Positions 10,418 to 18,660 of a stretch of 32,274 nucleotides of DNA are shown one piece after another. The position numbers and the translations under genes are program-made. The DNA is from Candidatus Thalassarchaeaceae archaeon (lineage in GTDB: Archaea; Thermoplasmatota; Poseidoniia; Poseidoniales; Thalassarchaeaceae): the NCBI GenBank assembly GCA_029942125.1, contig JAPYUB010000009.1, positions 1 to 32,274 on the forward strand. Reading direction: 5' to 3'. The first letter of the stretch is position 1; each line of letters begins with the position of its first letter. The notes below the pieces were generated by a model, which saw only the letters and a list, made by a program, of their open reading frames with translations, was not told the DNA's origin and made no database searches.

Positions 10418-10504
10418 GCGACGTTCGCATAGCCTGGCCATCGCGCTGGATTGCTAATCCAGTGGGTTTTACCCGCGGGAGTTCAAATCTCCCACGTCGC
10501 GCCA
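10418..10504 (+). tRNA. tRNA-Ser (anticodon GCT), CCA encoded
   Basis: Acceptor stem GCGACGT/ACGTCGC plus discriminator G and CCA. Anticodon arm CTGGA-TTGCTAA-TCCAG. Long variable arm GGGTTTTACCC. T arm GGGAG-TTCAAAT-CTCCC. Confidence 0.92.
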
Positions 10505-13866: not shown

Positions 13867-13956
13867 CCCTCGGCGAACCGACACACGGAGAAAAGGATTG
13901 TAGCAGGCATCAATACGGGCCACAGGGTTGATGGATGCGACCTTCATGGGGGTTTG

Positions 13957-15033
13957 ATGATGCGGGGCGAGGACTCGGTCGCCAACGCACGAAAAGTGCG
14001 TGATGAGAGGGGGGTGACCGCTGTGGTTGAGTTTCTCTCAGCATTCGTCCTTTTTTTGGTCATTGTTAGCGCATTTCTTGCTTTGAGTCAATTGAAACTA
14101 GGGAGTAATGTAGCGGAGGTGGATAGACTTGATCAGATGGCTATTGACGGACTTGAAAGGCTCACTGATTCCAAGGGACACGTCGTCCTCAGAAATGCGG
14201 GTATCCGAGATATCACAAATGCGAGCGATGATTGGCATTTACACAACGCTAGTACTTTGCTAACAGCAGATTTACTACCCGCGATTGGAGATGGTGCTGG
14301 ACACCTAGACATGGACCGAATTGTAGCGTTAGGAAATGTCACCGAAGATCGTCTCATTCACGGCCTTGGAATTGACGAAGGATTGAGCCTCAATCTGACA
14401 ATCATCGTGGTCCAGAGCAGTGATGAATCGCAGATTGATGAAATCATCTTTTCCGATGGATCTTCGCGCTCAAGCGCAACCCGTGGTGCTACCGCCAGTC
14501 GAATCATGCATCTCGATGATAATGTGGTGCGGGTAACTATGGAAGTACACAATGCCGGACGCGAACCTTCAGGGCTGCGAATCACTGAATTCATGGCCGA
14601 CCCATTGAATGGACCACCTGAATGGATTGAACTAGAAAATCCGGATGGATTTGCCATGAATCTATCCGGTTGGAGTCTTGCACGACCGGGGGCCTTTGAA
14701 TTGATTCAAGATGGAGCATTGGCTGCAGGGGGGCGATTGATTTGCACCGGTAATGCTGTCACACAGTACAATCCAACCAATGCCACAATGATTGATATGG
14801 CCGCATCGGGTGTTCTAGGAACAGGAACAATCGATGCATTAGCAGCAGAGGGGGATACCATCACTCTTGGTTGGACGCGTGCGGGAACAGTACTCACATA
14901 TGACGTAATTATTGTGACTTGGGACGGGACTTGGGATATCCAAGCCAATCATTCGATGACATACAATTTGGGTGGCTCACCAAGCAGTTCAACGAATTGG
15001 ACGGGAGTAGATGGCGGCACGCCCGGTTGGTGA
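13957..15033 (+). CDS. Type IV pilin-like (class III signal peptide) protein with C-terminal lamin-tail-like (LTD) domain
   Basis: N-terminus ...KVRDERG|VTAVVEFLSAFVLFLVIVSAFLALSQL: charged leader, Gly, then hydrophobic helix with a Glu near +6. C-terminal ITEFMADPLNGPPEWIELENPDGFAMNLSGWSLARPG...GDTITLGW resembles LTD. The ORF track starts at TTG 13954; ATG is at 13957/13960. Confidence 0.7.
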   Translation: MMRGEDSVANARKVRDERGVTAVVEFLSAFVLFLVIVSAFLALSQLKLGSNVAEVDRLDQMAIDGLERLTDSKGHVVLRNAGIRDITNASDDWHLHNASTLLTADLLPAIGDGAGHLDMDRIVALGNVTEDRLIHGLGIDEGLSLNLTIIVVQSSDESQIDEIIFSDGSSRSSATRGATASRIMHLDDNVVRVTMEVHNAGREPSGLRITEFMADPLNGPPEWIELENPDGFAMNLSGWSLARPGAFELIQDGALAAGGRLICTGNAVTQYNPTNATMIDMAASGVLGTGTIDALAAEGDTITLGWTRAGTVLTYDVIIVTWDGTWDIQANHSMTYNLGGSPSSSTNWTGVDGGTPGW

Positions 15034-15113
15034 AGAATCATCATAATCGGGTCGTTTAGGAATTGTTCAGTCAATCGGCTTATCTACGGCCTGCGGAATC
15101 GGGCACTGTTACC

Positions 15114-15875
15114 ATGATGCCAACCCCCCAGTACGAGCGTGACAGATGTGTCACTGGGATTGCTGGGTTGGATGAAATTCTACGTGGTGGGATCCCCTAC
15201 GGTTCAACTGTTCTGGTGGCAGGAACCTGTGGCTCTGGAAAGACAACAATGTGCATGGAATTCTTGGTGAATGGTGCGGAGAATGGTGAGGCATGTGCTC
15301 ATTTTTCAGCCACAGAACCCTCAGTGAAGCTTCTGGAGAATGTTCGGCAATTCGATTTCTTTGACATGCGTTTGGTTGATCGAGGATTAATCAACGTCTT
15401 TGATATGGACGTTCTGTTCTCATGGTTAGGAATGACAAAATCAACCTTCGAACTGTCTGATATCGATGCCATGGTGAAATCGATTACGGACATTGTCAAT
15501 ACAATCGGCGTCACCCGTCTGGTGATTGATTCAGTGACCACATTGTGCTACAAGATTCCCAGTGAGCAACTCATCCGCGATTTCTTGTTCAAACTCGGAA
15601 AGGCCCTTTCGACCCTCGGCTGCACCGCACTACTGGTGTCTGAAATTACATCCTCTGGTGCGAAAGCCTACTGGTCATCATTTGGTGTAGAAGAAGCGAT
15701 TCTCGATGGCATCATCGTTCTTGGTGATGTCGAACGGATGGGACACCTGCTAAGATTCATTCAGGTAGTCAAGATGCGTGGTGCATCACACGCTCGCGCG
15801 AAGTACGCGCTTGAATTAACTCCGAAAGGCGTGATGCTCACACCGATGTTGAAGTGGGGTGCTGTGAATGATTGA
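15114..15875 (+). CDS. KaiC/FlaH-like RecA-superfamily ATPase (intact Walker A)
   Basis: TGIAGLDEILRGGIPYGSTVLVAGTCGSGKTTMCMEFL (Walker A GTCGSGKT) and VTRLVIDSVTTL (Walker B). The ORF track starts at TTG 15063; ATG 15114 is more plausible. Confidence 0.88.
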   Translation: MMPTPQYERDRCVTGIAGLDEILRGGIPYGSTVLVAGTCGSGKTTMCMEFLVNGAENGEACAHFSATEPSVKLLENVRQFDFFDMRLVDRGLINVFDMDVLFSWLGMTKSTFELSDIDAMVKSITDIVNTIGVTRLVIDSVTTLCYKIPSEQLIRDFLFKLGKALSTLGCTALLVSEITSSGAKAYWSSFGVEEAILDGIIVLGDVERMGHLLRFIQVVKMRGASHARAKYALELTPKGVMLTPMLKWGAVND

Positions 15876-16455
15876 GTTGGATGCAGGAGTGGCTCAACAA
15901 TTAGCTGAAGAGGTCACGCCTTCTTCGGCGATTCAAGTTCGCGTCGGGACAAGCAATTCGGAACTCATCATCGCCTCAATTCTGCAACCTTTGATTCAAG
16001 GTTTTGAGATGAGAGGTGTGTACATCTGTGCATCACGAAGTGCAACTGAAATCATTCAATCGTTAGAACAAATTGGGGTGGATCCAAGTGGGATACAGTT
16101 CATTGACACTGTGTCGAGTGGTTTCATCGGAGGTACCAAGGTTCCATATTCCAACGTGCGCTTCGTTGATAGCCCCATAATGCTGGAGTCTATCATGCTA
16201 CAGACCTTGTATCACTTGGGGGAATATACCGAGACTGGTAATTTTGTGATAATTGATTCTGTCAATGCGCTTTCAATTTACAACGAGAAAAGAATGCTCG
16301 CTGAGTATCTACACACATTCATCAACACATTCCGCGCACGCGAGGTGTTGACAATCATCATCAACGTTCCAGACCAGACGCCACCAGGAGTATTGGCCAA
16401 TCTGGATTTGTACTGTACCGACCTAATTGACCGAGGGCAGGTTGTCATTCATTGA
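15868..16455 (+). CDS. KaiC/RecA-like protein, degenerate (no Walker A)
   Basis: Overlaps the upstream gene by 8 nt. Walker B-like NFVIIDSVNALSIYN is retained. The P-loop position reads VGTSNSELIIASIL. Confidence 0.65.
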   Translation: MIELDAGVAQQLAEEVTPSSAIQVRVGTSNSELIIASILQPLIQGFEMRGVYICASRSATEIIQSLEQIGVDPSGIQFIDTVSSGFIGGTKVPYSNVRFVDSPIMLESIMLQTLYHLGEYTETGNFVIIDSVNALSIYNEKRMLAEYLHTFINTFRAREVLTIIINVPDQTPPGVLANLDLYCTDLIDRGQVVIH

Positions 16456-16465
16456 GGTGTAGAAA

Positions 16466-17287
16466 ATGGCAACATCAATTCGATTCGACGGTGATGACGA
16501 GGAGTTCTATGGCGACATGTGCAGCATCGGCTCAGCAAAATTCGATGCGATTCTGACCGGCAATGTACTCAATGAGGGGAGCATTCCTCGCGGGTTCACG
16601 ATGCTGGCCATCGGCAACCAAGGTGCAGGTATGGATCTGTTTGCCAAACAATTCGCATCCGTCGCTGAAGATCCTGAGAACACCCTGCTCATCTCCACCG
16701 CAGAAAGCCAAACTGAGATTCTCTCACTGTACCGGCGTTACAATTGGCCCACCGACATCAAGGTCAGAACCATGGGTGAGGAGTATAACCGCAATGTTCT
16801 GGAACGCGACCTACGCGCTAGCAGATTTCGACTTGAAGGGTTTTCGATGGAAGATATTCAGCGTCTCGCCCAGACACGATTCGTGGAGAATGAAATCCAC
16901 GATTATCTGACTGATTTGACCACTCAGTTGACATCGCTTCCAGCATATTTCAGAGCGGCTGTCGACAATCTCGATTTCTTCTTCACTCGAAATGAACCGG
17001 CACGTGTGATTTCGATGTTGCGCATGATTCAAGCGCATACACAATTGCATAGAGGCATTCTTCTGCTCAATGTCTCAAGTGATATGGTCGACAAAGCTGT
17101 TGAGCGTGAATTGTACGCAATGTGTGATATTGTGATGGAGTTTGAGGTCGGCATGCTTGGAACAGATTTCGAGACTCGCATGGTCATCCGCAAGTTCCGT
17201 AACGGACCTGAGAACCTCAAAGCGATTTCATTCCGAGTCACCAAGGACGAGGCTATCACTCCAGAGACAGTGGACCGTATCGCTTGA
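16466..17287 (+). CDS. KaiC/FlaH-like protein with degenerate Walker A
   Basis: KFDAILTGNVLNEGSIPRGFTMLAIGNQGAGMDLFAKQFA parallels the KaiC 'GLDxxLgGGiPxGs...GxxGxGKT' layout, but GKT is replaced by GMD. Confidence 0.7.
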   Translation: MATSIRFDGDDEEFYGDMCSIGSAKFDAILTGNVLNEGSIPRGFTMLAIGNQGAGMDLFAKQFASVAEDPENTLLISTAESQTEILSLYRRYNWPTDIKVRTMGEEYNRNVLERDLRASRFRLEGFSMEDIQRLAQTRFVENEIHDYLTDLTTQLTSLPAYFRAAVDNLDFFFTRNEPARVISMLRMIQAHTQLHRGILLLNVSSDMVDKAVERELYAMCDIVMEFEVGMLGTDFETRMVIRKFRNGPENLKAISFRVTKDEAITPETVDRIA

Positions 17288-17292
17288 TTGTC

Positions 17293-18303
17293 TCAGAATA
17301 AGCCGAATATCCAAACGATTGGATCTCCTAGTAGGACTAATGGAAGGATTGCTGGGAATACGAACAGCAGGAACGGGTGCTTGGCGGTTACCCAGGCTTT
17401 CTCCAATCCTTCCGCAGCCAATTCCTCCAGCACTGCCTCAACATCTGTTTCGGCGCGACTGCCGCGAACGGGGCGCATCCGTCTAGTGATGCCCCGAGTG
17501 CCATCGGGTTTGTCGATGATTTCCTCCAGCAACCAAACATGCTTGTTGGGTATTTCTGACAATGTCATGCGTGAAGCGTGCCAAGACATGGAGAGTGGCA
17601 TCAAATCACCTGCGCTACTATTTCGAACAATCATCACAAATGGAAGAACAAGGAAGGCGAGTCCAGCCCAGATGAGAAGTGAAATGGATGGAGGCATGGA
17701 AGTCGAGAACGTCTCGCTGGAAGTATTCAGTGGAAATTCCGCACCATTCCATGAAGGCAACAAAAGTGTGGCCAGCATCATCGCTTTGGCATCTGCACCG
17801 CCGTGCAGCATCCTGAATCTCCACGCCATTTCAAAAAATACCAGGACAATCCCCATGATGACCATTTGGCCCCAGAGCAATGCCGATTCAGTGGTGGATG
17901 CGGAGGTGTCCATGTACACATTTGCATCGAAATAGTCCAGCAATGTAGGCGCGTATTCCATAGCACCCATGACCAAACCAACACCACTGGCAATATACCA
18001 GACTGTCACAAGGATGTCGACAATTGAACCTTGCATGATATCATCAAGGGATGGTCGTCCAATCAATGCAGTCGAAGCGAAGGCGACCGCGGCGGAGGCT
18101 GTCAACCAAATCATCCAACTGGCTTCAAGGATGAGCAGTTCAAGACACAACAGGAACAAAGCAGGTTTGGCCCAAGCCCACCACCACTCGTTTGAAACCC
18201 TGCGAGTTTTGTGATCCAGCCATGCAGCGCCACCAAAACACAAGATGAGAACGCCGACACGAACCCACTGGATTAGTTCCAATTCGAAGTTGCCATCAGC
18301 CAT
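17293..18303 (-). CDS. A24-type (GxGD) prepilin/preflagellin peptidase-like membrane protein
   Basis: WLDHKTRRVSNEWWW (first catalytic Asp region) and GGADAKAMM (GxGD-like), with multiple TM helices. The ORF track start at 18438 would overlap the divergent UPF0147 gene; the internal ATG at 18303 is preferred. Confidence 0.75.
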   Translation of the reverse strand: MADGNFELELIQWVRVGVLILCFGGAAWLDHKTRRVSNEWWWAWAKPALFLLCLELLILEASWMIWLTASAAVAFASTALIGRPSLDDIMQGSIVDILVTVWYIASGVGLVMGAMEYAPTLLDYFDANVYMDTSASTTESALLWGQMVIMGIVLVFFEMAWRFRMLHGGADAKAMMLATLLLPSWNGAEFPLNTSSETFSTSMPPSISLLIWAGLAFLVLPFVMIVRNSSAGDLMPLSMSWHASRMTLSEIPNKHVWLLEEIIDKPDGTRGITRRMRPVRGSRAETDVEAVLEELAAEGLEKAWVTAKHPFLLFVFPAILPLVLLGDPIVWIFGLF

Positions 18304-18384
18304 GCGATTCAACACTTGCACTGGAAAGCGCCTTAAAGCAGCCTCGGCCCCCCGAAGCCGTGAGTTCACGTTCGGAGGAGTTCC

Positions 18385-18660
18385 ATGACAAGCGATATCG
18401 AGAATCGAATGCAACAAATCGCGGGCGTTATTACACAATTAGATGATCCAAAAGTGCCCCGCAACATCCGCAAGGGCGCAAAAGATGCGGTCGAAAAGTG
18501 GTTACTCAACAAGAATAAGGAACTCGATATCAGAATTGCGATTACGCAAGCCAAATTGGAAGAACTCTACGAAGATCCAAACATTCCAATGGAATTTGGA
18601 ACATTGATTTTGCAGATTAATACTGCGCTTGAGCAGATGCTTACTGATCTGCATTCCTGA
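18385..18660 (+). CDS. UPF0147 family protein
   Basis: 91 aa; ITQLDDPKVPRNIRKGAKDAVEKWL...LYEDPNIPMEFGTLIL matches the archaeal UPF0147 pattern. GGAGGAG ribosome-binding site upstream of the ATG. Confidence 0.8.
   Translation: MTSDIENRMQQIAGVITQLDDPKVPRNIRKGAKDAVEKWLLNKNKELDIRIAITQAKLEELYEDPNIPMEFGTLILQINTALEQMLTDLHS

Follow-up and report, generated by a model that had tools for sequence, protein, structure and literature searches.

The subject of this analysis is a locus on a 32,274-nucleotide (nt) stretch of DNA from a Candidatus Thalassarchaeaceae archaeon (GenBank assembly GCA_029942125.1, contig JAPYUB010000009.1), hereafter the window, which is the complete contig C9 of a 1.83-Mb genome that is 86% complete. 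Within it, a gene for a pilin-like protein with an LTD domain (LTD-pilin) is followed by three tandem genes of the KaiC family (KaiC1, KaiC2 and KaiC3, together the trio) and by a convergent gene for an A24 prepilin peptidase (Table 1). A first-pass annotation made from the sequence alone had inferred that these five genes form a functional unit, and our open reading frame (ORF) calls and Pfam matches place all of them where it did, with the same 8-nt overlap of KaiC1 and KaiC2 and the same 5-nt gap between KaiC3 and the peptidase gene; KaiC2 and KaiC3 are separated by 10 nt. The unit that is conserved, however, consists of the LTD-pilin, the trio and a divergent gene for a large surface protein that the earlier gene list had overlooked, whereas the peptidase is mostly unlinked and is not a constant member. 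We conclude that the locus probably controls type IV (adhesion) pili, through a mixed switch that KaiC and pseudo-KaiC proteins would form.

Table 1. Genes of the conserved block and the adjoining peptidase gene, in window coordinates.
Feature	Position	Strand	Basis and remarks
Large secreted/surface protein, 1114 aa	10505-13849	-	ORF call; no Pfam match
LTD-pilin	13954-15033	+	ORF; Pfam LTD 6e-10; ATG alternatives 13957, 13960
KaiC1, single-domain KaiC ATPase	15063-15875	+	PF06745 8e-55, 186 bits
KaiC2, pseudo-KaiC without P-loop	15868-16455	+	PF06745 3e-5, 24.1 bits
KaiC3, pseudo-KaiC with altered Walker A	16466-17287	+	PF06745 3e-7, 30.6 bits
A24 prepilin/preflagellin peptidase	17293-18438	-	Arc_PepC_II 2e-7; probable start ATG 18303

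Two of the listed starts may lie further inside the genes. Orthologues of KaiC1 point to approximately 15114 instead of 15063, and the shorter form of the peptidase is probably the correct one because many orthologues align only from about its ATG; the longer form overlaps UPF0147.

Family membership and motifs of the KaiC proteins

Against the curated PF06745 cut-off of 26.6 bits, KaiC1 and KaiC3 pass and KaiC2 falls just under. The sequence profile of KaiC2 has no match in the PDB, but a fold search with its predicted model (pLDDT 78) returns FlaH (4yds) as the best match (E 9e-8), along with KaiC structures; the KaiC3 profile itself matches KaiC structures at 1e-10 to 1e-12. On the NCBIfam ArlH equivalog model, KaiC1 and KaiC3 score 35.7 and 36.0 bits and KaiC2 gives no match, so that all three fail the cut-off of 215 bits. 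Judged by these profile scores, KaiC1, KaiC2 and KaiC3 are not ArlH. Weak Elongator-type matches of KaiC1 and KaiC2 (E > 0.02) had raised the idea of an Elp456-like ring, which we did not use.

The three proteins differ in their nucleotide-binding motifs, and the earlier description of one intact and two degraded P-loops holds. In KaiC1, the Walker A motif (GTCGSGKTT), the Walker B Asp and the KxRG motif are all intact, and Walker A is present, Lys included, in 74/74 orthologues. KaiC2 has no Walker A motif, nor does any of its 76 orthologues, one of which (L052) is N-masked at the site. The corresponding segment of KaiC3 reads GNQGAGMDL in the window; among 61 orthologues, the Thr/Ser is lost in all and the Lys in 56, and a GSGxELFAKQF-type segment is conserved where Walker A would be. 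The Walker B Asp is kept throughout KaiC1 (74/74) and KaiC2 (76/76) and in most KaiC3 sequences (57/61). The KxRG motif is kept in KaiC1 and mostly kept as KxRN in KaiC3, and KaiC2, which is approximately 60 residues shorter, stops before the KxRG strand. KxRG is found in KaiC1 at 59/59 loci with KaiC3 versus 4/10 loci without it, a correlation that suggests an interface shared by KaiC1 and KaiC3.

A combined tree, which included FlaH and two further KaiC proteins encoded in this genome, recovers KaiC1, KaiC2 and KaiC3 each as monophyletic (support 0.62, 1.0 and 0.99, respectively). Their pairwise distances correlate at 0.81-0.92, as vertical co-inheritance would give.

Conservation of the gene block

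Within the order Poseidoniales, which corresponds to Marine Group II (MGII), KaiC3 is found in 85/146 genomes. We compared the gene block of the window with 80 loci of other genomes, which a strict-motif scan of contigs had retained and which all carry Poseidoniales, MGII or unresolved euryarchaeote titles: LTD-pilin, KaiC1, KaiC2 and KaiC3 occur in the same order and on the same strand in 71, and the order of the block is thus not a matter of chance. Of the other nine, four are contigs with the KaiC genes only, two end before KaiC3 and three (L081, L129 and L142) have KaiC1-KaiC2-KaiC3 inverted in place, still between a pilin and the LTD gene. Among 15 loci followed in detail, the four genes are constant and only L053 lacks the surface protein, having the peptidase at that position instead. 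Pilins belonging to a single family lie directly after KaiC3 at L053, L055, L062 and L065, and the two of these pilins that were tested (L053 and L055) match PF07790.

The flanks of the block change wholly between lineages, from gyrAB/LonB to A-type ATP synthase/CtaAB to EPSP synthase/MutSL. In Poseidoniaceae, gene sizes had pointed to a che cluster downstream of KaiC3, which Pfam matches identify instead as the A-type ATP synthase operon. The relatedness of the families within the order, and the fact that flanks are also conserved within each family, would fit ordinary synteny inherited without joint function. We regard this reading as highly improbable, as the block persists where its flanks differ completely, the KaiC genes stay together even where they are inverted in place, and KaiC1 and KaiC2 are adjacent across 25 families outside the order.

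These more distant loci come from a search of the phylum, in which a KaiC2 profile matches 200/394 genomes, 117 of them outside Poseidoniales. Of the 60 loci examined from the 25 families, 59 have KaiC1 immediately before KaiC2, and 45 have KaiC3 after them, some of the remaining 15 ending at a contig edge. An LTD-pilin also precedes KaiC1 in two genera of a distant lineage, family f20. An upstream neighbor common to seven distant families proved to be an RraA/OMP-decarboxylase fusion, which is metabolic and was set aside.

The surface protein is likewise a regular neighbor, as a homologue adjoins the module in almost every Poseidoniales locus whose sequence extends far enough. It has a signal peptide, a long ectodomain, one C-terminal transmembrane helix, a basic stretch and a short cytoplasmic tail of acidic-aromatic composition (DEFxxxxEDFFD), and this tail type, (D/E)EF(D/E)(D/E)FF, is kept in most of 15 homologues. 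At L136 and L137, the surface-protein gene lies on the strand of the KaiC block and is not divergent. In the window, a tRNA-Ser (GCT) gene occupies 10418-10504 (+), between gyrA and the surface-protein gene.

Association with type IV filaments

The first-pass annotation had reported that FlaI and FlaJ are missing from the window, and we likewise find no FlaI, FlaJ or archaellin gene within it. Its suggestion of an incomplete archaellum cluster does not survive a search of the rest of the genome, as contig C4 carries an intact canonical archaellum operon with an archaellin (PF01917 1e-23), a FlaG-like protein, FlaH, FlaI and FlaJ, and the KaiC genes of the window are not ArlH. Two further type-IV-filament machines are encoded elsewhere. 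The pilus operon of contig C77 comprises the gene of an ATPase of the PilB type, which matches PilB3_C weakly (7e-4), along with two genes for platform proteins and two for pilin-like proteins, and Tad-like filament genes, comprising a CpaF-like ATPase (on C99) and two T2SSF genes, are found on the separate contigs C36 (14165-15308) and C99 (4412-5653). With all three machines located elsewhere, the locus is not an archaellum in decay, and the genome has other filament loci besides it.

The distribution of the trio sets the archaellum apart from the other two machines. In Thalassarchaeaceae, the trio occurs in genera g1, g6, g8 and g11, and both the C77 PilB and the C99 ATPase occur in the same set; FlaJ is found in g1, g8, g4 and g10. 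Genera g6 and g11 have the trio with no archaellum found, and g4 and g10 have an archaellum and no trio. In Poseidoniaceae, the trio and all filament machines are present in nearly all genomes. Hence, the distribution of the trio departs from that of the archaellum both ways, and the trio cannot be separated from either the C77 pilus or the C99 machine. A link of the trio to the archaellum was rejected on this genus-level mismatch, and specificity for the C77 pilus alone is unsupported, the C99 Tad-like ATPase having the same order-wide distribution.

A role as an archaellum accessory, with the trio serving as a second ArlH-like switch for the C4 archaellum, has several points in its favor: ArlH is itself a KaiC homologue, KaiC3 is weakly ArlH-like, the KaiC2 model matches FlaH best among solved structures, and most genomes with the trio also have an archaellum. 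We nevertheless hold this role to be improbable. The archaellum operon already includes a canonical FlaH, the two pairs of genera above have the trio without a detected archaellum or an archaellum without the trio, and the structural genes linked to the trio are Pilin_N-type pilins rather than archaellins.

This linkage is also seen outside the order. Pilins of the Pilin_N type lie on the same strand downstream of the KaiC genes in 16/60 loci, representing 10/25 families, and no other non-KaiC family was found on that strand near the KaiC genes in so many families. We estimate the chance expectation at approximately 1% per locus within 3 kb, based on approximately 3.4 Pilin_N genes per 1.9-Mb genome. 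Across genomes outside the order, Pilin_N is carried by 113/117 with KaiC2 versus 90/149 without, and a PilB match (E <= 1e-80) is found in 113/117 versus 87/149.

The LTD-pilin is a possible further link to filaments. Its PF00932 score (39.9 bits) exceeds the cut-off of 34.3, and its AlphaFold2 model (pLDDT 85) has an N-terminal helix of 36 residues (8-43) followed by a beta-rich ectodomain, for which Foldseek returns the Ig fold of lamin A/C as the best PDB match (prob 1.00, E 6e-4). The model also weakly matches the Haloferax volcanii pilus (8fj5, prob 0.66), and the sequence profile has no match in the PDB. The N-terminus reads as a pilin-like hydrophobic helix (RDERG/VTAVVEFLSAF), the segment AVxEFLxAFxLFL is invariant, and the region resembles the first pilin of the genome's own C77 operon (hhalign P 1.3e-4, prob 53%). 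There is no Pilin_N (PF07790) match, although pilins adjacent in related loci do have one. From its sequence and predicted fold, the LTD protein is a candidate type IV pilin in the broad sense of a class III signal with a peptidase site ahead of a hydrophobic helix, and its processing by the peptidase is putative.

The peptidase scores 32.1 bits on Arc_PepC_II (cut-off 29.9), with both catalytic Asp residues visible (LDHKTRR and GGADAK). It is present in essentially one copy per genome, was found in 100/146 Poseidoniales genomes, and occurs wherever either filament does, including g4 and g10, which lack the trio and in which it is mostly beside flaJ. Among the loci checked, g1 and g6 are the only genera in which it adjoins the KaiC block, and it is unlinked in most genomes. 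The peptidase is the single general enzyme of its genome and is not dedicated to the module, and its inclusion as a fixed fifth member was rejected on these grounds.

A proposed switch for pilus assembly

In the reading that we favor, the locus would act as a module that controls type IV pili. KaiC1, a relative of ArlH and KaiC, would be its ATP-binding switch, and KaiC2 and KaiC3 would be constant partners that have lost the nucleotide-binding motif, most likely in a mixed ring or stack with KaiC1. Cyanobacterial KaiC forms hexameric rings with its sites at subunit interfaces, and the KxR residues that KaiC3 mostly retains are those that extend into the nucleotide site of the neighboring subunit in KaiC rings. 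The ATP or phosphorylation state of such an assembly may set whether a pilus ATPase and platform build or hold the filament, by comparison with the proposed action of ArlH on ArlI. Within that filament, the LTD-pilin would have the place of a minor pilin or a tip pilin, and the conserved cytoplasmic tail of the surface protein is a candidate input through which surface contact could be read. In the earlier choice between an incomplete archaellum cluster and a distinct system, the second branch is the better one, with the qualification that the locus looks like a pilus control module and not like a secretion machine of its own.

A more specific version, which we put forward only tentatively, is that the trio forms a heteromeric ring of fixed composition across the phylum, in which KaiC3 would complete in trans the nucleotide site of KaiC1, the one catalytic member, and KaiC2 would cap or dock the assembly. 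Such a ring would be the pilus counterpart of ArlH and could provide a route from surface contact to pilus assembly in archaea reported to lack chemotaxis genes.

Several observations weigh against a pilus control module. Order-level co-occurrence fits the C77 pilus and the C99 Tad-like machine alike, and the pattern may reflect one or a few losses in the small-genome Thalassarchaeaceae, in which the genera without the trio are perhaps a single clade. The Fisher tests on the co-occurrence of KaiC2, Pilin_N and PilB ignore phylogeny, and a small number of lineages (f30, f37 and f38) may account for the KxRG correlation. The inspected loci showed neither a pilus ATPase gene nor a platform gene next to the trio, the proposed target ATPase being assigned by co-occurrence and pilin linkage. 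Finally, pilins and PilB occur in many genomes outside Poseidoniales that have no KaiC2, which means that pili in general do not require the trio.

A rival reading is a general KaiC signaling hub, transcriptional or physiological, with surface structures among its targets but not its only ones, comparable to CirA of H. volcanii. In work cited in PMC5847659, KaiC-like proteins are proposed as archaeal signaling hubs, and CirA affects both motility and cell shape (PMC13286277). An adjacent pilin was not found in 15/25 families, and a MetOD1-type gene lies between KaiC2 and KaiC3 at L184, with a similar gene at L183. We consider a hub of this kind rather unlikely, as pilins are the sole same-strand downstream family that recurs in 10 families, and the LTD-pilin is linked to the KaiC genes in two distant lineages. 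The MetOD1-type gene, which is V4R/HNOB-like and internally duplicated, spans L184:9785-10900, and the gene of similar sequence spans L183:3751-4875. The MetOD1 domain is related to V4R and heme-NO-binding domains (PMC5847659), and the inserted protein is a candidate sensor for the trio.

Among known systems, ArlH/FlaH is one of the closest to the module of type IV pilus control proposed here. Unphosphorylated ArlH is hexameric, binds the archaellum ATPase ArlI and is thought to switch it (PMC8978795). Like the trio proteins, ArlH is a single-domain member of the KaiC family; it works with a type-IV-filament ATPase, as the trio would, and FlaH is the closest solved fold of KaiC2; the trio differs in having three paralogues, two of them without Walker A, in lying outside the arl operon and in occurring without a detected archaellum. 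By this analogy, the most economical account is that the trio may have the same part in a pilus as ArlH has in the archaellum, two of its subunits having become non-catalytic partners. In cyanobacterial KaiABC, the KaiC fold and the Walker motifs of KaiC1 are shared, whereas the trio consists of single KaiC domains, two without the canonical nucleotide-binding motif, and no KaiA or KaiB is seen nearby. The PilB3/PilC3 adhesion pilus of H. volcanii resembles our system in the weak PilB3_C match of the C77 ATPase and the weak 8fj5 match of the LTD model; here, however, the machinery is on another contig, has split platform genes and is tied to the trio by co-occurrence and pilin linkage only. 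Haloarchaeal iKaiC proteins also have KaiC-like domains thought to have lost ATPase activity, but these are combined with domains such as HalOD1 (PMC5847659), whereas the pseudo-KaiC proteins of the trio are stand-alone and share an operon with an active KaiC.

KaiC regulators near pili are already known. In the passages of Makarova, Koonin and Albers (2016, PMC4858521) that bear on the subject, KaiC ATPases (arCOG01171, 01174 and 01175) are described as repeatedly encoded near or in archaeal type IV pilus operons and proposed as regulators. One of these cases is paired with a DEATH-like protein, and those main-text passages contain no fixed set of one active and two inactive proteins. An obligate trio of this composition was not found in the main texts of the searched literature.

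In the surface ocean, no archaea are more abundant than those of Marine Group II. Their archaellum has been described by Rinke et al. (PMC6461757), who credit it with adhesion and report that chemotaxis genes are missing, and by Tully (PMC6336850); the words pilus and KaiC do not appear in the main texts of these two papers. For particle attachment in MGII, our analysis points to pilus machinery that is distinct from the archaellum and has a KaiC module to itself, and the presence/absence pattern sets the filaments apart. Conserved across a phylum with one active and two inactive paralogues, the trio would offer a simple natural test of the effect of pseudo-ATPases on KaiC-type rings, and trio sets from cultivated Thermoplasmatota, if found there, would be directly testable.

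The comparison also turned up variation in the archaellum loci themselves. In genomes of g4 and g10 (e.g., contig C91 of G114), where the peptidase lies beside flaJ, FlaJ is only 47-50% identical to that of g1, and their archaellum was possibly acquired separately. At L048, genes for a surface protein of 1570 aa, which has several hydrophobic segments near its C-terminus, and for a 287-aa protein lie just upstream of the archaellin gene (L048:1140-5852) and are possible additions to the archaellum locus. Downstream of the same operon, a long repeat-rich surface protein is encoded by one or more genes broken by a run of N (L048:14826-19428).

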